Shown: positions 12,347 to 27,170 of the stretch, piece by piece
How the letters are laid out: each line of letters starts with the position of its first letter
Numbering within the stretch: position 1 is the stretch's first letter
DNA from: Synechococcus sp. MW101C3
Lineage (GTDB): Bacteria; Cyanobacteriota; Cyanobacteriia; PCC-6307; Cyanobiaceae
Direction: 5' to 3'
Length of the DNA: 64,000 nucleotides
NCBI RefSeq assembly: GCF_002252635.1
Contig: NZ_NQKX01000004.1
Span: 186,001-250,000, forward strand
The notes under the pieces: generated by a model
Told to the model about the DNA's origin: nothing
Database searches by the model: none
Seen by the model: only the letters and a program-made list of their open reading frames with translations
Program-made: the position numbers and the translations under genes

Positions 12347-13594
12347 TCACTTCTGTACAGCGGTTGCTTGCCTTTGCGCCCCGGCTTGGGGTAACCCAAA
12401 GGCGATCAGCACCGCCACGCCCGCCAGCAGCACGATGCTCAACCAGAACGGGCTCTTTTCGCCGATCAGTTCATAGGCCACCCCCGCCAGCGGCGGGCCG
12501 ATGAAGCTGCCCAGGCTCTGCAGGCCCTGCAGGCTGCCCAGGGCAGCGCCCTGGCCGCCGCTGTCGAGCCGCCGCGACACCAGGCTGCGCAGGCTGGGGG
12601 TGACCAGACCGGTGCCCGCCGCCAGCACCGCCACCGCGATGAACACCAGCGGCTGGGCGGTGGCGGGAGTGGCCAACGGCACCAGCAGCGTGCCGGCGAT
12701 CACCATGCCCAGCCCCGCCATCGTGAGCCGCCATTCGCCGAACCGCTTCACCAGCGGTCCGATCAGGCCCCCCTGCACCAGCGTGGCCACCACGCCCACC
12801 ACCAGGAAGGCCGCGGCCGACAGGCCCGGCCCCCAGCCGAACATCTCCTTGAAATAGAGCACCAGCACGGCGGTGAAGCCGTTGAAGGCCAGGAAGAACA
12901 GGAAGAAGGCCAGGCACAGGCGCCGCACCTGCGAGTTGCTGAACACCTTGCTCAGCTGGCTGAGCGGGTTGAGCTCGCGCTTGCGCGGCAGCGCCTGGCG
13001 TGCTTCCGGTGGATGGGTTTCCGGCAGGGCGGTGAGCACCAGCACCAGGTTCACCGCCGCCACGGCCACGGCCACCAGCAACGGCAGGGTGAGGCTGATC
13101 TCCGCCAGCAGCCCCCCCAGGGCAGGGCCGAGCATGAAGCCCACCCCGAAGGCCACGCCGATCAGGCCGAAGGCCTTGGCCCGCTTCTCCGGTGGGCTGA
13201 TATCGGCCAGCACGGCACCGGCGGTGGCGGCCGTGCCGCCGCTCACGCCATCGATCAGCCGCGCCACGAACAGCAGCGGCAGCGGCCAGGCACTGCCCGC
13301 CGGCCAGGGCACCGCCAGCGTGAGCGCAAAACCGCCCAGGCCGAGCACCGAGCCGGCCACACAGCCGGCGATCACGGGCCGCCGCCCGAAGCGGTCGCTG
13401 AGGGCGCCGATCAGCGGCGTGAACAGGAACTGGGCCAGGGCGTAACTGCCCGCCAGCAGCCCCAGCGTGCGGCCATCGCTGGTGAAGCTGGCCAGCAGAA
13501 AGGGCAGCAGCGGAAACACGATGCTCTCGCCCAGCCTGTCGTTCAGCAGGGTGAGAAAGACGCAGAAGCGGGTGGAAGGGCGCGGCCAACCCAT
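12347..13594 (-). CDS. TetA-like MFS efflux transporter
   Basis: The 415-residue protein has about twelve hydrophobic helices. The loop 2-3 motif GALSDRFGRRPVI (about 62-74) and the motif C-like GPALGGLLAEIS (about 155-166) place it among drug:H+ antiporters of the DHA1/Tet type. SRRLDSGGQGAALGSLQGLQ in the C-terminal half is also typical of this group. The substrate is unknown. It lies just upstream of ppk1 and 43 bases from the end of the fusion gene, all on the minus strand. Confidence 0.85.
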   Translation of the reverse strand: MGWPRPSTRFCVFLTLLNDRLGESIVFPLLPFLLASFTSDGRTLGLLAGSYALAQFLFTPLIGALSDRFGRRPVIAGCVAGSVLGLGGFALTLAVPWPAGSAWPLPLLFVARLIDGVSGGTAATAGAVLADISPPEKRAKAFGLIGVAFGVGFMLGPALGGLLAEISLTLPLLVAVAVAAVNLVLVLTALPETHPPEARQALPRKRELNPLSQLSKVFSNSQVRRLCLAFFLFFLAFNGFTAVLVLYFKEMFGWGPGLSAAAFLVVGVVATLVQGGLIGPLVKRFGEWRLTMAGLGMVIAGTLLVPLATPATAQPLVFIAVAVLAAGTGLVTPSLRSLVSRRLDSGGQGAALGSLQGLQSLGSFIGPPLAGVAYELIGEKSPFWLSIVLLAGVAVLIAFGLPQAGAQRQATAVQK

Positions 13595-13637: not shown

Positions 13638-15860
13638 TTAGCCGCGGCGCCAGCTGTGGAAGCGTTGCAGCAGCGCCAGGGTGCGCTGGGGGGCGTGGGC
13701 CCGTTTCCAGACCCCGGCGGCGTACTTGCTGGCTTCCGAGAAGGTGGGGTAGGCGTGGATGGTGGAGAGGATGCGGCCGAGGCCGAGCCGCCAGCGCATC
13801 GCCAGCACGAATTCCGCCAGCAGTTCGCCGGCCTGCTCCGCCACGATCGTCACCCCCAGGATCCTGTCGCTGCCGGGCGGGGTGAGCACCTTAACGAAGC
13901 CGGTTTCGGCGCTTTCCACGATCGCCCGATCCAGCTCCTGCAATGGAAAGCGGGTGATCTCCACCGCCACCCCCTGCCGGGCGGCCTCCGCTTCATTCAG
14001 CCCCACCCCGGCCACTTCCGGATCGGTGAAGGTGGCGCGCGGAATCACCCGCCCATCGACTTGAAAGCGGCGGAACGGGGCGAACAGGGCGTTGACACTG
14101 GCGTACCAGGCCTGGTGGGCCGCGGTGTGGGTGAACTGCCAGGGGCCGGCCACATCGCCGGCGGCGTAGATGTTCGGGAAGAGGGTCTGCAGCGCGCCGT
14201 TGGTGTCGATCGTGCGGCCAGTGGGAATGCCCAGCTCCTCCAGGCCATAGCCGCTCAGCCGCGCCTGCCGGCCGATGGCGCAGAGCACCTCATCGCACAG
14301 CCGTTCGCTGTGCACGGGCGCCTCGGCAGGGCCGGTGCTGATCAGCACCACCTTCGCTCCGCCGTCAGCCTGCCCGCCGTCAGCGTCTTGTGGCCGCCGC
14401 TCGAAGCCCCGCACCGTGCAGCCGGTGAGCACCTCCACCCCGTCGGCTTCCAGGGCCTGGAGCACCAGCGCGGCAGCGTCGGGGTCTTCGCGGCTGAGCA
14501 GCTGCGGGCCCCGCTGCAGCAGGGTGACCCGGGCGCCCAGGCGGGCCAGAGCCTGGGCCAGTTCACAACCCACCGGTCCGCCCCCCATCACCACCAGGCG
14601 CGGCGACGCCAGTGGGCAGTTGCGCAGGGCCTGCCAGAGGGTTTCGCTGGTGAGCAGACCCACTGCGTCGGCGCCCGGCAGATCCGGCAGCACCGGGCTG
14701 GCGCCGGTGGCCAGCACGATCGCCGGCGCCGTGAGCCGCTGCTCCTCGCTGCCGTCACCCTTGCGGATCGCCACGGTCCAGGGGTCGATCAGGCGGCCAT
14801 GGCCGCGCAGCACCTCCACCCCCAGCCCTTCGTAGCGCTCGGCGCTGTCGTGGGGGGCCACCGCCGCCACCTTGGCGAACACCCGCTCCAGCACCTGCGG
14901 CAGCGACACGCTGGGGTTGTGGGGGGTGAGGCCGTAGCGATCCGCCCGGCGCATGCGCGCCGCCTGACGGGCCGTGGCGATCAGGGCCTTGCTGGGCACG
15001 CAGCCGGTGTTGAGGCAGTCGCCGCCCATGCGATCGGCTTCGATCAGGGTGACTTTCGCCTTCACGGCGGCGGCGATGTAAGCCGTGACCAACCCCGCCG
15101 CGCCGGCGCCGATCACGATCAGGTTGCGATCGAAGCGGGCCGGCCGCCTCCAGGGGCGGTAGAGCCTCCAGCGCTTCCAGCCCTCCAGCGCCAGCCGCGC
15201 CAGCCAGGGGAAGGCCCCCAGCAGCACCAGCGACAGCAGCAGCGGCGGCGTGAGGATCCCCTCGAGGCCGCGCAGCTGCGCCAGCTGGGTGCCGGCATTC
15301 ACGTAGACGAGGGTGCCGGGCAGCATGCCGATCTGGCTGGCGAGATAAAAGGAGCGGACGGGCAGCGGCGTGAGCCCCATCACCAGGTTCACCAGCACAA
15401 AGGGAACCACGGGCACCAGCCGCAGGCTGAGCAGGTAGAGCACCCCGTCGCGGCGCAGGCCCGCCTCGATCGGCGCCAGCCGCGCGCCGAAACGCTGCTG
15501 CACCGGCTGGCGCAGCAGGGTGCGGGCCAGCAGGAAGGCGATGGTGGCGCCGGCGCTGGAGGCGAACGACACCAGCAGGGTGCCGAGCCCCAGCCCGAAC
15601 ACCGCCCCTCCGGCCAGGGTCAGCACGGCGGCGCCGGGCAGGGAGAGCCCGGTGATCAGCACATAGGCGAGGGCGTAGGCGGCGGCGGCGCTGAGCGGGG
15701 CCTGCTGGCGCCAGACCAGCAGGCCGGTGCGGGCGTCACGCAGGCCCTCGACGCTGAGCACCTGGGGCAGGTCCAGCAGGAAGAACAGCGCCACCAGCAC
15801 AGCCAGCGCCAGCAGCAGCAGCCAGCGCCAGGCGCCGCCCGCAGCGGCGGTGCGCGTCAA
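13638..15860 (-). CDS. Fusion: TVP38/DedA-type membrane domain + FAD disulfide oxidoreductase
   Basis: The 740-residue protein has two halves. Residues about 10-235 hold five to six hydrophobic helices of the TVP38/TMEM64 family, with GGAVFGLGLGTLLVSFASS and RLVPVVPFVLVNLVMG. From about 245 onward is a pyridine-nucleotide disulfide oxidoreductase: FAD-binding VIGAGAAGLVTAY, redox-active CLNTGCVPSK, NAD(P)-binding VVMGGGPVGCELAQ, FAD-binding NIYAAGDVAG, and a C-terminal dimerisation domain with HAYPTFSE. It resembles mercuric reductase or lipoamide dehydrogenase but lacks the MerA metal-binding N-terminal domain and terminal CC. It starts at a TTG overlapping the ArsS-like stop (TTGA). The electron acceptor is unknown. 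Confidence 0.88.
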   Translation of the reverse strand: MTRTAAAGGAWRWLLLLALAVLVALFFLLDLPQVLSVEGLRDARTGLLVWRQQAPLSAAAAYALAYVLITGLSLPGAAVLTLAGGAVFGLGLGTLLVSFASSAGATIAFLLARTLLRQPVQQRFGARLAPIEAGLRRDGVLYLLSLRLVPVVPFVLVNLVMGLTPLPVRSFYLASQIGMLPGTLVYVNAGTQLAQLRGLEGILTPPLLLSLVLLGAFPWLARLALEGWKRWRLYRPWRRPARFDRNLIVIGAGAAGLVTAYIAAAVKAKVTLIEADRMGGDCLNTGCVPSKALIATARQAARMRRADRYGLTPHNPSVSLPQVLERVFAKVAAVAPHDSAERYEGLGVEVLRGHGRLIDPWTVAIRKGDGSEEQRLTAPAIVLATGASPVLPDLPGADAVGLLTSETLWQALRNCPLASPRLVVMGGGPVGCELAQALARLGARVTLLQRGPQLLSREDPDAAALVLQALEADGVEVLTGCTVRGFERRPQDADGGQADGGAKVVLISTGPAEAPVHSERLCDEVLCAIGRQARLSGYGLEELGIPTGRTIDTNGALQTLFPNIYAAGDVAGPWQFTHTAAHQAWYASVNALFAPFRRFQVDGRVIPRATFTDPEVAGVGLNEAEAARQGVAVEITRFPLQELDRAIVESAETGFVKVLTPPGSDRILGVTIVAEQAGELLAEFVLAMRWRLGLGRILSTIHAYPTFSEASKYAAGVWKRAHAPQRTLALLQRFHSWRRG

Positions 15861-16855
15861 GCCGCCAGCGCCCCGCCGCAGCTGGAGCCGCTGCCGGCGG
15901 TGCAGCCGAAGCAGTGGTCGGCCACCTGGATCGGATCGCCGCTGGGGTCACGCCGCAGCAGGTCACGCAGGTGGGGGCGACCGGCGGGATCCGCCGGGCC
16001 GGCCGGATCGCCCGCGAGCCTCAGGCCCAGCTGCTGGTTGAAATCACAGTCGTAGAGGTGGCCCTGCCAGTCGACGCTGATCAACCGGCGGCACATCACC
16101 TGCTCCAGGTTGGCGTCGCGATGGCTGCGGCGCAGCAGCTCCAGGTAGCCCTCCAGCTGCCCCTGGGCGCTCAGCACCGCCGCGAACCGCTGCACCGGCA
16201 TGTTCGCCAGGGCATAGAGGCGGTTGAACACCACGCCGTGGTCGGCCGCCAGCACGCGCCGGTAGTCGGCCTCCAGCGGCTCCTGCTCCGGCGGCAGCAC
16301 CGGCCCCTGGGGGTTGAACACCAGGTTCAGCTCCAGGTCCGTGCCCGGCTGGCCGTAGCCGAGGGCATTGAGCTGGCGCAGGCCGTCGATGCTGCGCCGG
16401 AACACGCCGGAGCCCCGCTGGCGCTCCACGTTGTCCTGCAGGTAGCAAGGCAGTGATGCCACCACCGTGACCCCCTCGGCGGCCAGAAAGGCGGCCAGAT
16501 CCTCCTGGCCCGGCTCCTGCAGGATCGTCAGGTTGCAGCGGTCGATCACCTCCACCCCTAGGGCGCGGGCGCGGCGCACCAAGTCCCGGAACTGGGGGTG
16601 CAGCTCTGGTGCGCCGCCGGTGAGATCGAGGCAACGCACGGCGCGGGCCGCCAGCACCGGCGGAATCAGCGCCAGGGTGTCCGCCGTCATGCTTTCGGTG
16701 CGGCTGGGCCCGGCGTTCACATGGCAGTGCACGCAGGCCTGGTTGCAGCGGTAGGTGAGGTTCACCTGCAGGGTGTCGAGCCCCTGGCGGTGCAGCGCCG
16801 GGAAGGCGGTGGCGGCCATGGCGGGCCGGATCGGGCTGGGGGACGGGGCGGACAT
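15857..16855 (-). CDS. arsS: ArsS-type radical SAM/Cys-rich protein
   Basis: The 332-residue protein carries the radical SAM cluster motif CNQACVHC (CxxxCxxC, about residues 34-41), preceded by DTLQVNLTY, and a glycine-rich DLTGGAPELHP. The C-terminus has MCRRLISVDWQGHLYDCDFNQ, CFGCTAG and SSCGG, the cysteine-rich part of the ArsS family. ArsS is linked to arsenosugar synthesis, adding a 5'-deoxyadenosyl group to methylated arsenic. No ArsM methyltransferase or arsenic regulator is adjacent, so another substrate remains possible. The ATG at 16855 avoids overlap with the anti-sigma gene and lies 13 bases after its stop. Confidence 0.85.
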   Translation of the reverse strand: MSAPSPSPIRPAMAATAFPALHRQGLDTLQVNLTYRCNQACVHCHVNAGPSRTESMTADTLALIPPVLAARAVRCLDLTGGAPELHPQFRDLVRRARALGVEVIDRCNLTILQEPGQEDLAAFLAAEGVTVVASLPCYLQDNVERQRGSGVFRRSIDGLRQLNALGYGQPGTDLELNLVFNPQGPVLPPEQEPLEADYRRVLAADHGVVFNRLYALANMPVQRFAAVLSAQGQLEGYLELLRRSHRDANLEQVMCRRLISVDWQGHLYDCDFNQQLGLRLAGDPAGPADPAGRPHLRDLLRRDPSGDPIQVADHCFGCTAGSGSSCGGALAA

Positions 16856-16868
16856 CGCGCGGCTGGGG

Positions 16869-17597
16869 TCAGATCGTGTCGCCGAGCACCTGACGGCCTG
16901 CGGGCCTGGCGCCGTGGCCACCGAGCGGCTCGACGCTGACCGACACGCTGCTGGCCTGGCTGGTGGGGGAGGTGGGAATCGGCATCGCCACATGGCCCCT
17001 GGCGTCGGGCACGAAGGGCACACAGCCCACCAGGCGGTCGTTCACCTTGGCCCAGAGCCGGTAGGTGTGATCAGGCGGCGGCGGCGGCAACCCGTCCACC
17101 AGCAGCAAGTTGTGGCTGGGGTTGCCGGTGACGATCACCGTGCCGCTGGCGGCGCCCGCGCCTGCGCCCGCCATGGCCCGCAGCGGCATCTGCCGGCTGA
17201 CCGCGCTGAGCGGCGCACCGCTGGTGGCCAGTTGCTGCTGCAGCTGGGCCAGTTGGGTCTGGGTGCGGTGCAGCTGCACGCCCACCGCCAGCAGACCGAG
17301 GCCGAGCGCGGCGGCGATCAGGCCGGGCAGACGTGGCGTGGCCGGGCGCGCCAGCAGCCGCTGCCGCAGGGCAGCCGGCGGCGTGCTGGTGGCGGGCAGG
17401 GCCAGGGGCAGCAGCTCCAGGGTGGTGCTGAATTCATCGAGCCGCTGGCGCAGGGCAGGTTGCTGGCGCAGAAGTTCGGCCAGCTGGCCGCGCTCCGCTT
17501 CGTCGAGGTCGCCGAGCGCGTGGCCGGCCAGCAGGGCCTCCACGTCGAGTGGTTCGCCTGCAGCGTCGTGGTGGCTGAGCGGGTGGTCGCTGCTCAT
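16869..17597 (-). CDS. RskA-like anti-sigma factor
   Basis: The 242-residue protein has an N-terminal cytoplasmic part with an anti-sigma-type acidic helix (EALLAGHALGDLDEAERGQLAELL, about 20-43), one transmembrane segment (about 91-108, LPGLIAAALGLGLLAVGV), a coiled-coil-like stretch rich in Gln, and an extracytoplasmic RskA domain with DHTYRLWAKVNDRLVGCVPF. It should hold the partner sigma factor at the membrane until a signal triggers release. It overlaps the sigma gene by four bases (ATGA), the normal arrangement of a sigma/anti-sigma pair. No zinc-binding HxxxCxxC motif is seen. Confidence 0.85.
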   Translation of the reverse strand: MSSDHPLSHHDAAGEPLDVEALLAGHALGDLDEAERGQLAELLRQQPALRQRLDEFSTTLELLPLALPATSTPPAALRQRLLARPATPRLPGLIAAALGLGLLAVGVQLHRTQTQLAQLQQQLATSGAPLSAVSRQMPLRAMAGAGAGAASGTVIVTGNPSHNLLLVDGLPPPPPDHTYRLWAKVNDRLVGCVPFVPDARGHVAMPIPTSPTSQASSVSVSVEPLGGHGARPAGRQVLGDTI

Positions 17598-18190
17598 GGC
17601 TGGGGGTGGAAATCGATCAGCAGCGTCCGCAGGCGGATCAGCCCCTGCCGGGCGCGGGTTTTCACGGTGCCGAGCGGCAACTGCAGCCGTTCGGCGATCG
17701 CCGACTGGCTCAGGCCCTCGTAATAGGCCATCTCCAGCACCTGGCGCTGGTTGGCGGGGATCGTCTCCAGGGCGGAGCGCACCCGCCCGGCCAGGTCGTT
17801 GGCCTCGGCGCAGTCCTGCGGGTTGCGCACGGCGGCCGGGAACAGCTGGGACGACCAGCGTTGCACCAGCTGCCAGCGGTTCTGGCGTTGCTGGATGCGG
17901 TTGAACGCCATCGAGCGGGTCATCAGCAGCAGGTAGGCCAGCACCGGGCCCCGCTTCGGGTCATAGCGGCCCTGCTGCCAGTAGCGCACGAACACGTCGT
18001 GGCAGAGGTCCTCGGCTTCCTGCGGGGAGCGGCACAGGCGCAGCGCCAGCCGGTAGACCGGCGCGCCGCAGCTGTCGTAGAGGGCGGCCAGATCCTGGTG
18101 CTGCCCGCTGCCGGCAGGCTGGGGCGGCGTGGCGGCGGCCTCCGCTTCGGAGCGGCTCACGGGCACGGTGAGGGTGGATCGGAACGGCAT
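17594..18190 (-). CDS. ECF-type sigma factor
   Basis: The 198-residue protein contains region 2 (YRLALRLCRSPQEAEDLCHDVFVRYWQQGRYDP, about 46-78) and region 4 with the helix-turn-helix YEGLSQSAIAERLQLPLGTVKTRARQGL (about 157-184), and no region 3. It resembles SigK/ECF factors controlled by RskA-type membrane anti-sigma factors. It is the first gene of a minus-strand run with the anti-sigma, ArsS-like and fusion genes. It is divergent from a secreted DM13 protein, a likely target. Confidence 0.9.
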   Translation of the reverse strand: MPFRSTLTVPVSRSEAEAAATPPQPAGSGQHQDLAALYDSCGAPVYRLALRLCRSPQEAEDLCHDVFVRYWQQGRYDPKRGPVLAYLLLMTRSMAFNRIQQRQNRWQLVQRWSSQLFPAAVRNPQDCAEANDLAGRVRSALETIPANQRQVLEMAYYEGLSQSAIAERLQLPLGTVKTRARQGLIRLRTLLIDFHPQP

Positions 18191-18193
18191 GGT

Positions 18194-18289
18194 GGGGATA
18201 CCGCTGACCTCCCGGATCGGATGGGGCGGGGCCAGCGGCGTTGGTCAGCGGCGGCCGGCAAACCGCCGCTGCCGGTCACCGGTATCCCC
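18194..18289. promoter_or_regulatory. Mirror-image elements between sigma and DM13 genes
   Basis: GGGGATACCG (18194-18203) and CGGTATCCCC (18280-18289) are perfect 10-base complements 76 bases apart, so each divergent gene carries the same motif read in its own direction. The copy for the sigma gene is four bases before its ATG; the copy for the DM13 gene is about 28 bases before its GTG. Between them is a hairpin, CAGCGGCGG (18246-18254) and CCGCCGCTG (18263-18271). A shared autoregulated promoter element is a reasonable guess. Confidence 0.45.
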
Positions 18290-18316
18290 TCCGCACCCTT
18301 TGGCCTCGAACGTTCC

Positions 18317-18769
18317 GTGATCACGTTTTCCCTTTCCAGCGTCAGCCGCGCTGCCGCGGCGCTGGTGCTCAGCGGCACCACCATGCTGGCGGCGCAGGCC
18401 ATGGAGCCCCAGCAGCAACGGGGCACCTTCATCAAGGCCGAAGCACCGGTGAGCGGCGGCTTCGTGATTAAGAACGAGGGTGGCAAGCGGCTGCTGATGC
18501 TCAGCAGGGACTTCAAGACCAACGACATGGCCCCCGACTTGAAGGTGGCCTTCAGCCCCTCGGCCACCCCCCTGGCCGGTAGCAAGCCGCCCGCCTACCC
18601 GCTCAAGCCCGGCAGCTACACCGTGCTGGCGCCGCTCAAGGCCAGCAAGGGCGGCCAGACCTACGTGATCCCCGCCTCGATCGATCTGAGCAAGCAGAAG
18701 TCGGTGCTGATCTGGTGCCGCCAGTTCAACGCCACCATGGCCTGGGCACCGATTCAGCCCGCGAAATAG
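18317..18769 (+). CDS. Secreted DM13-domain protein
   Basis: The 150-residue product begins at GTG 18317 with a signal peptide (hydrophobic about residues 5-24, ending AAQA), followed by a single DM13 domain. Domain marks are RGTFIKAEAPVSGGFVI, LKVAFSP, the Tyr-Pro loop YPLKPGSYTVLAPLK and the conserved single cysteine in VLIWCRQFNATM, proposed in this family to have a redox role. It should work in the periplasm or outer layers. Divergence from an ECF sigma/anti-sigma pair with mirrored promoter motifs suggests that it belongs to that regulon. Partner and substrate are unknown. Confidence 0.75.
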   Translation: MITFSLSSVSRAAAALVLSGTTMLAAQAMEPQQQRGTFIKAEAPVSGGFVIKNEGGKRLLMLSRDFKTNDMAPDLKVAFSPSATPLAGSKPPAYPLKPGSYTVLAPLKASKGGQTYVIPASIDLSKQKSVLIWCRQFNATMAWAPIQPAK

Positions 18770-18784: not shown

Positions 18785-19300
18785 ATGATCGGCGCCATGG
18801 ATGCGGCCCCGACCCAGCTCAGCCACCTCAACGCCAGCGGTGAGGTGCACATGGTGGAGGTGGGGGACCGTCCCGCCAGCGATCGCCGCGCCGTGGCCGA
18901 GGGCTTCATCGCCATGGATCCGGCGGTGCTGGCGCTGGTGCTCGAAGGCCGCGCCGCCAAGGGGGATGTGCTGGCGGTGGCGCGGGTGGCGGCGATCCAG
19001 GGCGCCAAGCGCACCTGGGAGCTGATCCCCCTCTGCCACCCGATCGCGCTCACGGGCCTGGAGGTGCGCATCGAGCCCAGCGCCGATGGCCGCGGCCTGC
19101 GTCTGGAAGCCGCCGCCCGCACCACCGGCCCCACCGGCGTGGAGATGGAGGCGCTCACTGCCGTGCAGGTGGGCCTGCTCACCCTCTACGACATGGTCAA
19201 ATCCGCCGATCCGGCCATGACCATCGGCCCGGTGCGGCTGCTGAGCAAGACGGGAGGACGCCACGGCAGCTGGTCCCATCCCGGCGCCGTGCCCTCCTGA
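18785..19300 (+). CDS. moaC: Cyclic pyranopterin monophosphate synthase MoaC
   Basis: MoaC converts the MoaA product into cyclic pyranopterin monophosphate, the second part of molybdenum-cofactor step one. The 171 residues show [21 protein letters not shown], the active-site [15 protein letters not shown] (about 79-93) and [23 protein letters not shown] (about 119-141) with catalytic Lys/Asp. It lies 13 bases before moeA. MoaA and MoaB are not in the window. A second ATG at 18797 is also a possible start. Confidence 0.96.
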
Positions 19301-19313
19301 GCCGTCACCCCCG

Positions 19314-20585
19314 ATGAGCAACAGTGCGGCCCCGCTTGAGCCCTACCCCCGCGAAGGCCTGCCGTTGGAGGAGGCCCGCCGCCAGGTGCTGGCCGCGCTC
19401 ACGCCCCTGGCCGGCAGCGAGACGCTGCCGCTGGCGCAGGCCCTGGGCCGCGTGAGTGCGGCGCCGGTGCTGGCGGCTGCAGCGGTGCCGGGCTTCCGCG
19501 CCTCGATCATGGATGGCTACGCCCTGGCCGCGGCCAGTGTCCCGCAGGTGGGACACTCCTGGCGCCTGGTGGGACGCTCGGCGCCGGGCGCCCCCTACGC
19601 CGCGCCGCTGCTGGAGGGGGAAGCGATCCGCATCCTCACGGGTGCGCCGCTGCCGGAGGGGGCCAGCCGGGTGCTGCCCCAGGAGCTGGTGGAGGCCGAT
19701 GGCGAGCGCCTGAGCCTGGTGCGAGAGGCGGGCCCTAACCCCTGGATCCGCGCCGCCACGGAAGAGGCCGCACCCGGCCAGGAACTGCTGGCCGCCGGGG
19801 TGCGGCTGGGCCCCGCTGATCTGGGCCGGCTGGCCAGCTGCGGTGTGGCGACCCTGGCGCTGCGGCGCCGGCCCCGGCTGGGGCTGCTGATCAGCGGTGA
19901 TGAGCTGGTGCCGGCCGGCAGCCCGCGCGGGCCAGGTCAGATCTGGGAGAGCAACGGCACCCTGCTGGCGGCGCTGCTGGCGCGCCTGGGGGTGGAGGTG
20001 GCCGAGCAGCGGGTGGTGGCCGATGCGCCCGAGCGCCTGCGCGCCGTCCTGCTGGAACTGGCCGCCAGCTGCGATGTGGTGGTGAGCACCGGCGGCGTGT
20101 CGGCGGGCGACAGCGACTGGATCCGGCCGCTGCTGGAGGAGCTGGGGCAGGTGAGCTTCTGGAAGCTGTTCCTCAAACCCGGCCGCCCGTTCGCCTTCGG
20201 GCAGCTGCAGCGGCCCGGCGCAGACGGCACCGTGCCGTTGTTCGGGCTGCCCGGCAATCCGGTGGCCGCGGCGATCACCGCCCTGCAGCTGCTGGTGCCG
20301 GCGTTGCAGGTGCTGGAGGGGGCGCCGGTGCAGCCGTTGCCGCGCCTGAAGGTGCGGCTGGCCGCGGAGCTCAAGCGTGGAGCCGGCCGCCCCGAGCTGG
20401 CCCGCGCCCGGCTGCAGGTGGGCCCGGAGGGGGAGCTGCTGGCGCTGGTGGAGGGCAGCCAGGCCTCCTCCCGCATCGGTTCGCTCCAGGGCGCCGACCT
20501 GCTGTTGGAGATCCCGGCCGAGCTGGGCACGCTGGCGGCCGGCAGCGAGCTGTGGGCCCAGCTGCTGCGCCTGCCGATCTTCTGA
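19314..20585 (+). CDS. moeA: Molybdopterin molybdenumtransferase MoeA
   Basis: MoeA inserts molybdate into adenylylated molybdopterin, the last step of cofactor synthesis, needed by nitrate reductase. The 423-residue protein shows the MoeA order: PGFRASIMDGYALAA (about 60-74), ILTGAPLPEGASRVLPQE, the MoeA/MogA domain with STGGVSAGDSDWI and KPGRPFAFG, and GLPGNPVAAAITALQLLVPAL. Its length is standard. It forms a two-gene unit with moaC and converges on the moaE-moaD operon, ten bases away. Confidence 0.96.
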   Translation: MSNSAAPLEPYPREGLPLEEARRQVLAALTPLAGSETLPLAQALGRVSAAPVLAAAAVPGFRASIMDGYALAAASVPQVGHSWRLVGRSAPGAPYAAPLLEGEAIRILTGAPLPEGASRVLPQELVEADGERLSLVREAGPNPWIRAATEEAAPGQELLAAGVRLGPADLGRLASCGVATLALRRRPRLGLLISGDELVPAGSPRGPGQIWESNGTLLAALLARLGVEVAEQRVVADAPERLRAVLLELAASCDVVVSTGGVSAGDSDWIRPLLEELGQVSFWKLFLKPGRPFAFGQLQRPGADGTVPLFGLPGNPVAAAITALQLLVPALQVLEGAPVQPLPRLKVRLAAELKRGAGRPELARARLQVGPEGELLALVEGSQASSRIGSLQGADLLLEIPAELGTLAAGSELWAQLLRLPIF

Positions 20586-25928: not shown

Positions 25929-27170
25929 TCACACCTGCCGCCGCAGCTGTTCATAGGCCTGGCAGAACGGTTCGCCCAGTGCCTGCCGCAGCACCCGGTC
26001 GGCGGCGAAGGCCTCCAGCGCCTCCTCCACGCTGCCCGGCAGCGACCGCGCCCGGCCGATCGGCGGATCGGTGTAGGCGTTGGCATCCTCACGGGGGCCG
26101 GGATCGAGGTTGCGCTCGATGCCATCGAGGCCGGCGGCCAGCACCGCCGCCGGCAGCAGGTAGGGGTTGGCGGCGCCATCGGCGAGGCGCAGCTCGAGCC
26201 GCTGGTCGTCGGGGATGCGCACCATGTGGGTGCGGTTGTTGCCGCCGTAGCTGATCCAGCCCGGTGACCAGGTGGAGCCGGAGGTGGTGTGCAGACCGCC
26301 GAGCCGCTGGTAGCTCTCGGCCACCGGGTTGGTGAGTGCGCAAAGCGCTGGCGCATGCTCCAGCAACCCGCCCAGAAACTTGTAGGCCAGCGCCGACAGG
26401 CCCAACGGCCCGCGTGGATCGTGGAACAGGTTGTGGCCGTCGGCGTTCCAGAGCGAATGGTGCAGGTGGGCGCCGTTGCCGGTGAGGGAGGCGAATGGCT
26501 TGGGCGAAAAGCTCACCCGCGCGCCGTGCTGCTCGGCCATCGCCTGCGCCATCACCCGGAAGAAGGCATGGCGGTCGGCGGTGACCAGGGCGTCGGCGTA
26601 GGTCCAGTTGAGCTCGAACTGACCGTTGGCATCCTCGTGATCGGCTTGGTAGGGCCCCCAGCCCAGGTCGCCCATGCCATCGAGCAGGCCGCCGATCAGC
26701 GGGTACTGCCGCATCAGCGCCAGCTGGTCGTAACAGGGCTTGCTCTGGCTGTCGTCGCCATCGGCGATCGCGGCGCCGCCGGGCTGCAGCAGGAAGAATT
26801 CCGCCTCCACACCGGTGCGGAAGTGGTAGCCCAGCCGCGCGGCCCGCTCCAGCTGGCACTTCAGCACCCAGCGCGGCGACTGCTCCAGCGGCAGGCCGCC
26901 CACCTGCAGGTCGGTGGCCACCCAGGCCACATCCCGCTGCCACGGCAGCACCATCAGGCTGGAGGTGTCCGGCAGGCCCAGCACGTCGGGGTCGGCGGGG
27001 GTCATGGCCAGCCAGGCGGCGAAGCCGGCGAACCCGGCACCGGCGGCCGCCACCTCCTGCACCGCCGCCACCGGCACGAGCTTGGCCCGTTGCACGCCGA
27101 ACAGATCGGTGAACGAGAAGAGCACGTGGCGGATGCCGCGATCGGTCGCGAAGCGGGCCAGGTCGGTCAT
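25929..27170 (-). CDS. glnT: Type III glutamine synthetase (GlnT-like)
   Basis: This enzyme family ligates ammonia (or an amine) to glutamate using ATP. The 413-residue protein is of GlnT type (TIGR03105-like), shorter than GlnA. Family segments are EAEFFLLQ (about 123-130), ANGQFELNWTYADAL, NGAHLHHSLW, SYGGNNRTHMVRIP and ELRLADGAANPYLLPAA. It is the last gene of a minus-strand run of oxidoreductase, desaturase and hydrolase genes, with a 41-base gap before it, facing a nitrilase cluster. Capture of ammonia or an amine released by that cluster is a plausible role. Gamma-glutamylation of an amine is an alternative. Confidence 0.85.
   Translation of the reverse strand: MTDLARFATDRGIRHVLFSFTDLFGVQRAKLVPVAAVQEVAAAGAGFAGFAAWLAMTPADPDVLGLPDTSSLMVLPWQRDVAWVATDLQVGGLPLEQSPRWVLKCQLERAARLGYHFRTGVEAEFFLLQPGGAAIADGDDSQSKPCYDQLALMRQYPLIGGLLDGMGDLGWGPYQADHEDANGQFELNWTYADALVTADRHAFFRVMAQAMAEQHGARVSFSPKPFASLTGNGAHLHHSLWNADGHNLFHDPRGPLGLSALAYKFLGGLLEHAPALCALTNPVAESYQRLGGLHTTSGSTWSPGWISYGGNNRTHMVRIPDDQRLELRLADGAANPYLLPAAVLAAGLDGIERNLDPGPREDANAYTDPPIGRARSLPGSVEEALEAFAADRVLRQALGEPFCQAYEQLRRQV

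Follow-up and report, generated by a model that had tools for sequence, protein, structure and literature searches.

The described systems closest to the gene unit reported here are pairs of an extracytoplasmic function (ECF) sigma factor and its anti-sigma factor, together with the arsM-arsS gene pair of arsenosugar synthesis. The unit lies in a 64,000-nucleotide stretch of the cyanobacterium Synechococcus sp. MW101C3 (contig NZ_NQKX01000004.1, positions 186,001 to 250,000), called the window below and numbered from its first letter. It comprises an ECF sigma factor, an RskA-type membrane anti-sigma factor, the radical S-adenosylmethionine (SAM) protein ArsS, a fusion of a VTT membrane domain to a disulfide reductase, and a DM13 protein encoded on the opposite strand. 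The two regulators and their neighbours are probably the control genes of an autoregulated ECF regulon of freshwater picocyanobacteria and its first targets; the regulon would protect the cell envelope from soft metals and metalloids and from the oxidation of thiols and methionine.

SigK-RskA pairs (ECF18/ECF19) are known from Mycobacterium and Yersinia, and the available extract of PMC7509140 gives a Cys133/Cys183 redox pair within the sigma factor for 94% of ECF18 and 56% of ECF19 proteins. In Caulobacter crescentus, the ECF16 pair SigmaF-NrsF has a YedY-type oxidoreductase and DUF2282-DUF692-DUF2063 operons among its targets, and NrsF is a six-helix anti-sigma factor with two conserved periplasmic cysteines that are important for function (PMC3511200, in excerpt). 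Another ECF16 pair, BcrS-AbcS, is induced by hypochlorous acid (HOCl) and is described with a Met-rich peptide and a methionine sulfoxide reductase (Msr) system (PMC8315932, in excerpt).

All the genes named in a first, sequence-only reading of this DNA are present in the arrangement it described. The sigma factor (17594..18190, minus strand; 198 residues; Sigma70_r2/r4) has cysteines at positions 41, 53, 63 and 127. Its gene overlaps by 4 nt that of the anti-sigma factor (16869..17597, minus strand), whose only Pfam match is RskA_C (PF10099, 53.4 bits, cut-off 29.4). A 13-nt gap, the only break in a minus-strand series otherwise joined by 4-nt overlaps, leads to arsS (15857..16855, minus strand), which encodes 332 residues with a radical SAM CxxxCxxC motif at 37-44 (C37, C41, C44) and scores 435.8 bits to TIGR04167 (cut-off 300). 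Going by its family, ArsS would carry out the radical SAM step of arsenosugar synthesis. The last gene, overlapping arsS by 4 nt, encodes the 740-residue fusion of a VTT (TVP38/DedA-like) domain to a pyridine-nucleotide disulfide reductase (13638..15860, minus strand; PF09335, PF07992, PF02852), with the redox motif CLNTGC at 282. The DM13 gene (18317..18769, plus strand, GTG start at 18317; 150 residues; PF10517, 68.6 bits, cut-off 25) runs divergently from sigma. The interval 15857-18769 assigned to the unit by the sequence-only reading covers arsS to DM13 and leaves the fusion almost wholly outside. A MerA mercuric reductase identity was considered for the fusion and rejected: it scores 331.3 bits to TIGR02053, under the cut-off of 454.45, and it lacks the C-terminal Cys pair expected in MerA, having no Cys past residue 527 of 740.

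Judged by the family of its anti-sigma factor, the system belongs with the RskA systems. Among solved sequences the sigma factor is closest to SigK (4nqw, E 3e-19), and the likeness extends to the RskA C-terminal domain and to the adjacency of the sigma and anti-sigma genes. However, the sigma factor stays under the SigK model (NF007228, 117.3 bits, cut-off 226), as it does under its best subfamily model (NF009172, 192.7, cut-off 222), and the known SigK-RskA targets are other ones. A redox-switched sigma factor of the SigK kind was rejected, as A140 and L190 align with the SigK Cys pair in an alignment that assumes a 17-residue offset of the PDB chain. The -35 element of mycobacterial SigK is reportedly CCATCC; a literature search found no paper that joins this string with SigK and RskA.

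A scan for the sigma gene in named genomes found 61 loci, of which 36 are picocyanobacterial (L033-L067 and L089; 538 kb). These 36 loci are not 36 genomes, as one strain contributes two and many overlap with the family genomes used below; the nearest named relatives of the window are Synechococcus and Cyanobium. In 34 of the 36 loci DM13 and sigma are divergent genes, the exceptions being L057, where sigma lies 782 nt from a contig end, and L065, where another gene takes the place. A two-block signal, first spotted by eye upstream of DM13 genes, faces both sigma and DM13. As C[AC]A[AT]CC-N15-CGGTA it has 60 matches over the 36 loci, where eleven other spacings from 10 to 21 give 0-2 matches each and the reversed pattern gives 1. 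Thirty matches lie within 300 nt before sigma and 24 before DM13; of the remaining 6, three have an MsrA-type reading frame with GGCFWG 330-390 nt downstream and one is the L065 site.

Both copies are present in the window, where they were scored with a position weight matrix (PWM) trained on 56 sites from L035-L067 and L089. The predicted sigma-dependent promoter of the sigma operon (CCATCC-N15-CGGTA; 18199..18224, minus strand; PWM 31.0) stands 8 nt before the ATG and is the top-scoring site of the whole window. That of DM13 (CAAACC-N15-CGGTA; 18259..18284, plus strand; PWM 10.3) stands 32 nt before the GTG. With the -10 block so close to the annotated ATG (8 nt; 18199-18190), the sigma mRNA would have almost no leader, unless the real start is further downstream. 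Random 260-nt stretches, drawn in part from loci of sigma-bearing genomes, score 15 or more in 0.2% of cases.

The signal also tracks the regulatory pair across genomes of the family. Eighteen genomes with an anti-sigma match at E <= 7.2e-36 were taken as sigma-bearing, and 22 genomes, hand-picked among those of the family with at least about 2 Mb, as sigma-less; the latter set leaves out at least two genomes of similar size (G045 and G087) and includes G076 despite a distant anti-sigma match (34%, E 8.7e-21). A stricter form of the signal occurs at 37 sites in 17 of the 18 sigma-bearing genomes versus 1 site in 1 of the 22 sigma-less ones (Fisher 3.5e-9, uncorrected for descent), and its reversed control at 4 and 6 sites, respectively. 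Because a looser form is found in 31 of the 40 genomes, loose matches alone prove little. Distant cyanobacteria show the same geometry in the form ATCC-N16-[CG]GTA, which precedes sigma in 13 of 34 distant loci (twelve other spacings give 0-3); [AC][AC]ATCC-N16-CGTA has 32 matches in 323 kb, with 1-5 at eight neighbouring spacings. These counts make a strong in silico case that the sigma factor is autoregulated and drives DM13 and the window operon through the predicted promoter.

Several genes in relatives appear to share this promoter; PWM scoring of arsenic, reductase and DM13 genes covered 29 arsS, 24 arsM, 12 VTT-reductases with 3 second copies, and 23 DM13 genes. An extra MsrA with a signal-peptide-like start is found in 9 of the 18 sigma-bearing and none of the 22 sigma-less genomes, and other MsrA matches in all 40. 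Its upstream region scores 15.1 to 34.1 in nine of nine cases, while ordinary MsrA genes give 0 of 21 (best 0.8). Only six of the nine are an independent test, because in G070, G084 and G090 the MsrA was reached through the signal. DM13 genes score at least 10 in 13 of the 17 tested in sigma-bearing genomes and in 0 of 6 in sigma-less ones. Full-length VTT-reductases occur in 11 of 18 sigma-bearing and 1 of 22 sigma-less genomes, and of the seven not in the sigma operon, five have scores from 8.4 to 24.7. One sigma-less genome has a VTT-reductase beside DM13 without the signal (L236, G050:C47:10567-13176).

An MsrP-like enzyme, whose best model is MsrP at 76.6 bits (below the cut-off of 207), is present in 12 of 18 sigma-bearing genomes versus 0 of 22, and its operon carries the signal in six of the twelve. 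The site lies 663-710 nt upstream in four genomes, before cytochrome b as read in G037, and 1283 nt upstream in two, before a same-strand MsrA. Bufferin-type DUF2282-MNIO-DUF2063 operons with the signal number two in G083, and an MNIO gene of G055 also carries it, making 3 of 3 among close relatives, two of them found through the signal. Further genes behind it are a thioredoxin-like one paired with that of a DsbD-type membrane protein (G037), a thioredoxin in G083, and, in three genera, BcsA-like glycosyltransferases named from the look of their sequence.

In distant genera, Met-rich small proteins with a signal-peptide-like start and repeats such as DAMKSP are encoded divergently from sigma with the signal (L074:7460-7732, L079:3250-3519, L080:5220-5474, L081:7445-7708). 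In Coleofasciculus, a thioredoxin with a Cys-rich NPCASKA repeat linker stands behind it (L073:1933-2571). A Met-rich peptide system is also said to exist in Azospira.

Arsenic genes recur in this setting. G037, G077 and G083 have one unbroken series of sigma, anti-sigma, arsS, VTT-reductase and arsM genes, and in G073 arsM comes immediately after arsS. In G090 the sigma gene is elsewhere, yet arsS (21.6) and a VTT-reductase-arsM pair (24.7) each carry the signal. Hydrococcus (L071) and Gloeocapsopsis (L083) have an arsM-arsS pair divergent from sigma, and both strands carry the signal there; with a score of 559.8, the ArsM of L071 clears the cut-off of 400 for arsenosugar ArsM (NF038099). A TIGR04283 arsenosugar glycosyltransferase (260.4 bits, cut-off 182) lies behind the signal in G083. 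The unit thus resembles the arsenosugar arsM-arsS system (TIGR04167, NF038099) in that its ArsS and the L071 ArsM pass curated cut-offs and the two genes are adjacent in several relatives; it differs in that the ArsM of the window genome falls far under the arsenosugar model. Limited literature searches on ECF sigma factors, arsenic included, found no ECF control of arsM or arsS.

The genome from which the window comes holds ten loose matches against 1 for the reversed control, and five of them precede sigma, each of two DM13 genes, an ArsC-like gene, and a second VTT-reductase with arsM behind it. The second DM13 is divergent from a DMT/EamA-type transporter gene. The ArsM (L164) aligns to solved ArsM 5evj at 369.6 bits with its conserved cysteines in register, and remains below the NCBIfam cut-offs (NF008823, 174.9 of 263; NF038099, 97.3 of 400). 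The ArsC-like protein (L165) likewise falls below the thioredoxin-type ArsC model (TIGR02691, 72.1 bits, cut-off 174.3); its cysteines C13, C89 and C96 presumably correspond to the three-Cys pattern of that type. Its gene is found in 2 of the 40 genomes, both times with the signal.

The anti-sigma factor offers a candidate sensor. An AlphaFold2 model has a helical N-domain, a long helix at 93-125 and a beta domain at 135-241; the lone cysteine, Cys192 (encoded at 17024..17022), lies in strand 188-195 of this outer domain, in a block with pLDDT about 90. The cysteine is placed within YRLW......(V/M)GCV in 34 of 34 picocyanobacterial anti-sigma factors and is the only one in 31, the others having an extra Cys or an over-long start. 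Of 19 distant anti-sigma factors, ten have it, seven do not and two are unreadable. At the loci of the seven Cys-less ones there are genes for Met-rich peptides or redoxin-like, cytochrome b or MsrA genes (assigned by family tests at L072 and by look elsewhere), and the cysteine is present at L071 and L083, which are linked to arsenic, and at L073, which is linked to VTT/Mer. That cysteine presence tracks target type is a lead only, drawn from the seven Cys-less loci and these three.

DM13 also has exactly one cysteine, Cys134, and no histidine. Cys134 and Met141 are invariant in 20 of 20 aligned sequences, and several picocyanobacterial DM13 proteins have Met-rich N-terminal or C-terminal stretches. 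The look of its N-terminus suggests that DM13 is secreted. The sequence has no match at E 1 among solved structures, and Foldseek with a model of mean pLDDT 75 gave a best E of 0.11, which is not significant. VIA-align placed Cu,Zn superoxide dismutase chains in its top rows (Z about 10, root-mean-square deviation about 3, 103-106 residues). Because DM13 has no histidine, it shares with these enzymes at most the barrel fold. A literature search joining DM13, anti-sigma and cyanobacteria found no paper.

We propose that the RskA-like anti-sigma factor, going by its family, would hold the sigma factor at the membrane, and that its outer beta domain with the conserved cysteine may sense damage or a thiol-reactive agent and free the sigma factor. 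Free sigma would then start transcription at CMATCC-N15-CGGTA, the step for which the in silico support is strong. Its own operon, which here includes ArsS and the membrane VTT-disulfide reductase, would rise together with the divergent DM13. The core would be sigma, anti-sigma, DM13 and envelope reductants, with the arsenic module as an addition recurring in several lineages. A role in envelope redox and metalloid defence is well supported by the kinds of predicted target.

This organization invites comparison with the ECF16 systems. As in SigmaF-NrsF, an MsrP-like gene and DUF2282-MNIO-DUF2063 operons make up part of the predicted regulon, here in relatives only and as judged by the promoter signal, and the anti-sigma factor has a conserved cysteine in its periplasmic domain. 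Unlike NrsF, a DUF1109 protein with six membrane helices, the cyanobacterial anti-sigma factor carries RskA_C, one membrane helix in its model and one cysteine; this lone outer-domain cysteine may also set it apart from the anti-sigma factors of SigK-RskA pairs. Furthermore, arsM/arsS, DM13, MsrA and thioredoxin genes stand behind the cyanobacterial signal (SigmaF-NrsF side as in the excerpt of PMC3511200). Because the regulators belong to other families, the system would work like SigmaF-NrsF without being a member of it. It is possible that it is the cyanobacterial counterpart of that regulon, in which a lone anti-sigma cysteine acts as sensor and arsenic methylation, methionine-sulfoxide repair and bufferin-type chelation are co-controlled. 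BcrS-AbcS is matched by the Met-rich small proteins and MsrA behind the signal in distant genera; it differs in its sigma/anti-sigma family, and arsenic genes are not mentioned for it in the excerpt of PMC8315932.

Other explanations can be weighed against these data. Chance clustering in one genome fits the observation that VTT-reductase, arsS and moaC-moeA adjoin sigma in some clades only; it is refuted by the signal statistics and by the DM13-sigma pairing in 34 of 36 loci. Together with arsS directly after the anti-sigma gene in 8 of the 18 sigma-bearing genomes of the family, that pairing answers the question of gene-order conservation raised by the sequence-only reading: the order is not unique to this genome. 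As for arsS itself, 125 of 149 relatives have a match (8 of these only a weak one, best E 8.8e-8 to 9.7e-4), and it is therefore a common gene recruited into the sigma operon. That the signal is the binding site of another conserved regulator co-occurring with sigma seems very improbable; the promoter is predicted from sequence, but the site has two directional blocks at fixed spacing, stands before sigma itself and tracks the pair's presence across genomes. A general response to envelope (photo-)oxidative stress, triggered by singlet oxygen or hypohalous acid, with arsenic genes as hitch-hikers kept by position, is a less favoured though serious contender. Met-rich small proteins, MsrA, the MsrP-like enzyme, redoxin and cytochrome b behind the signal speak for it, as does the HOCl induction of BcrS-AbcS with its Msr system (PMC8315932, excerpt). 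However, hitch-hiking does not account for arsenic genes with their own copies of the signal (arsM and arsS in G090, arsM in L071 and L083), and the excerpt of PMC3511200 describes Caulobacter SigmaF targets as induced by chromium and cadmium and not by agents that generate reactive oxygen species.

A dedicated arsenic-methylation or arsenosugar regulon, in which the anti-sigma cysteine reacts with arsenite or a methylated arsenical and the redox genes are helpers, is rather unlikely. It draws on the arsM, arsS, ArsC-like, TIGR04283 glycosyltransferase and PHO4-family phosphate transporter genes behind the signal in several lineages, on the divergent arsM-arsS pairs beside sigma in two distant genera, and on the lone thiol of the anti-sigma factor. 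However, arsS lies away from sigma in 10 of 18 sigma-bearing genomes, arsS and arsM are found in sigma-less genomes too, and no role in arsenic handling is obvious for the MsrA, MsrP-like and thioredoxin genes. The signal is absent at six of seven stand-alone arsS genes tested in sigma-bearing genomes and present at one; arsenic as the sole theme was rejected for this reason. Because stand-alone arsS genes mostly lack the promoter, arsenic is better seen as an output in some lineages than as a shared theme. The sequence-only reading had proposed a redox or metalloid stress circuit at the envelope, which the shared signal and the kinds of target support. It had also doubted that arsenic is the signal, as no arsM, arsR or mer regulator is adjacent. 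That holds for the immediate neighbours (polyphosphate kinase, MFS, moaC and moeA), the other open reading frames of the window not having been scanned for regulators; the argument itself is weakened by the arsM behind the signal in the same genome and by the arsM genes in the sigma operons of relatives.

Several observations weigh against the autoregulated envelope regulon that we favour, apart from the mostly signal-free stand-alone arsS genes. The promoter, and hence the regulon, is predicted in silico; PWM scores of sigma and DM13 sites are circular because the matrix was trained on them (the spacing and sigma-bearing versus sigma-less controls are free of this), and Fisher values overstate independence because the genomes share descent. 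G055 is the sole sigma-bearing genome without the strict signal, having GCATCC-N15-CGGTA before sigma (score 4.7). In the window, a non-exact site inside an open reading frame that looks glutamine-synthetase-like (26502-26477, minus strand, PWM 14.5; reading frame 27170..25929) outscores the DM13 site (10.3); this is probably a chance match. The other five loose matches in the genome are intragenic or doubtful, and the second VTT-reductase-arsM site scores 14.9, its sister copy in G002 9.5. Low DM13 scores come from G002 (5.5) and from G055, G073 and G083 (each below 4), and the remaining two of the seven stand-alone VTT-reductases score below 0 and have no signal. The extra-MsrA sites have exact blocks in five of nine cases and a changed -10 block in four, and the MsrA reading frame of G020 contains a stop. 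Six of the twelve MsrP-like genes, including that of the window's own genome, lack the signal, as do three of three distant MNIO matches. Finally, Synechocystis arsM is not induced by arsenate or arsenite in the excerpt of PMC4010505, a promoter not compared with the signal.

Around the unit, gene content varies. An MFS transporter gene (12347..13594, minus strand; PF07690), 43 nt downstream of the fusion, is by position a possible operon tail. On the other side, moaC (18785..19300, plus strand; PF01967) begins 15 nt behind DM13 and is followed by moeA (19314..20585, plus strand; PF03453/PF00994). The order DM13 then moaC-moeA is kept in L033-L040, and the two genes are possibly co-transcribed with DM13. 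Their co-induction would make sense, as an MsrP-like enzyme would need molybdenum cofactor. A DMT/EamA transporter gene is present in 25 of the 36 loci, between DM13 and sigma where order was read; the window has none and its sister locus L033 has one. L065 (contig CAIXBB010000045.1) has sigma and the transporter, with neither anti-sigma nor DM13 detected, and there a flavohemoprotein-reductase-like gene (254.9 bits, cut-off 432) carries the facing signal.

An ECF sigma/anti-sigma regulon of Nostoc punctiforme has reportedly been studied, and overlap with the present regulon is possible. Few functions are known for cyanobacterial ECF sigma factors: a 2009 review, in the part available, leaves SigG, SigH and SigI of Synechocystis unexplained and gives a low-temperature phenotype for sigG–sapG of PCC 7002 (PMC2758279). 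The system described here is directly testable, since the analysis supplies a predicted promoter, a list of targets and a candidate residue for sensing. It would tie arsenic methylation to envelope redox damage, and it would be a case of a SigmaF-type output set under another sigma/anti-sigma family. If the SigmaF-NrsF parallel holds, Cys-bearing and Cys-less distant anti-sigma factors may mark a metalloid- or thiol-sensing branch and a methionine-oxidation branch, respectively.

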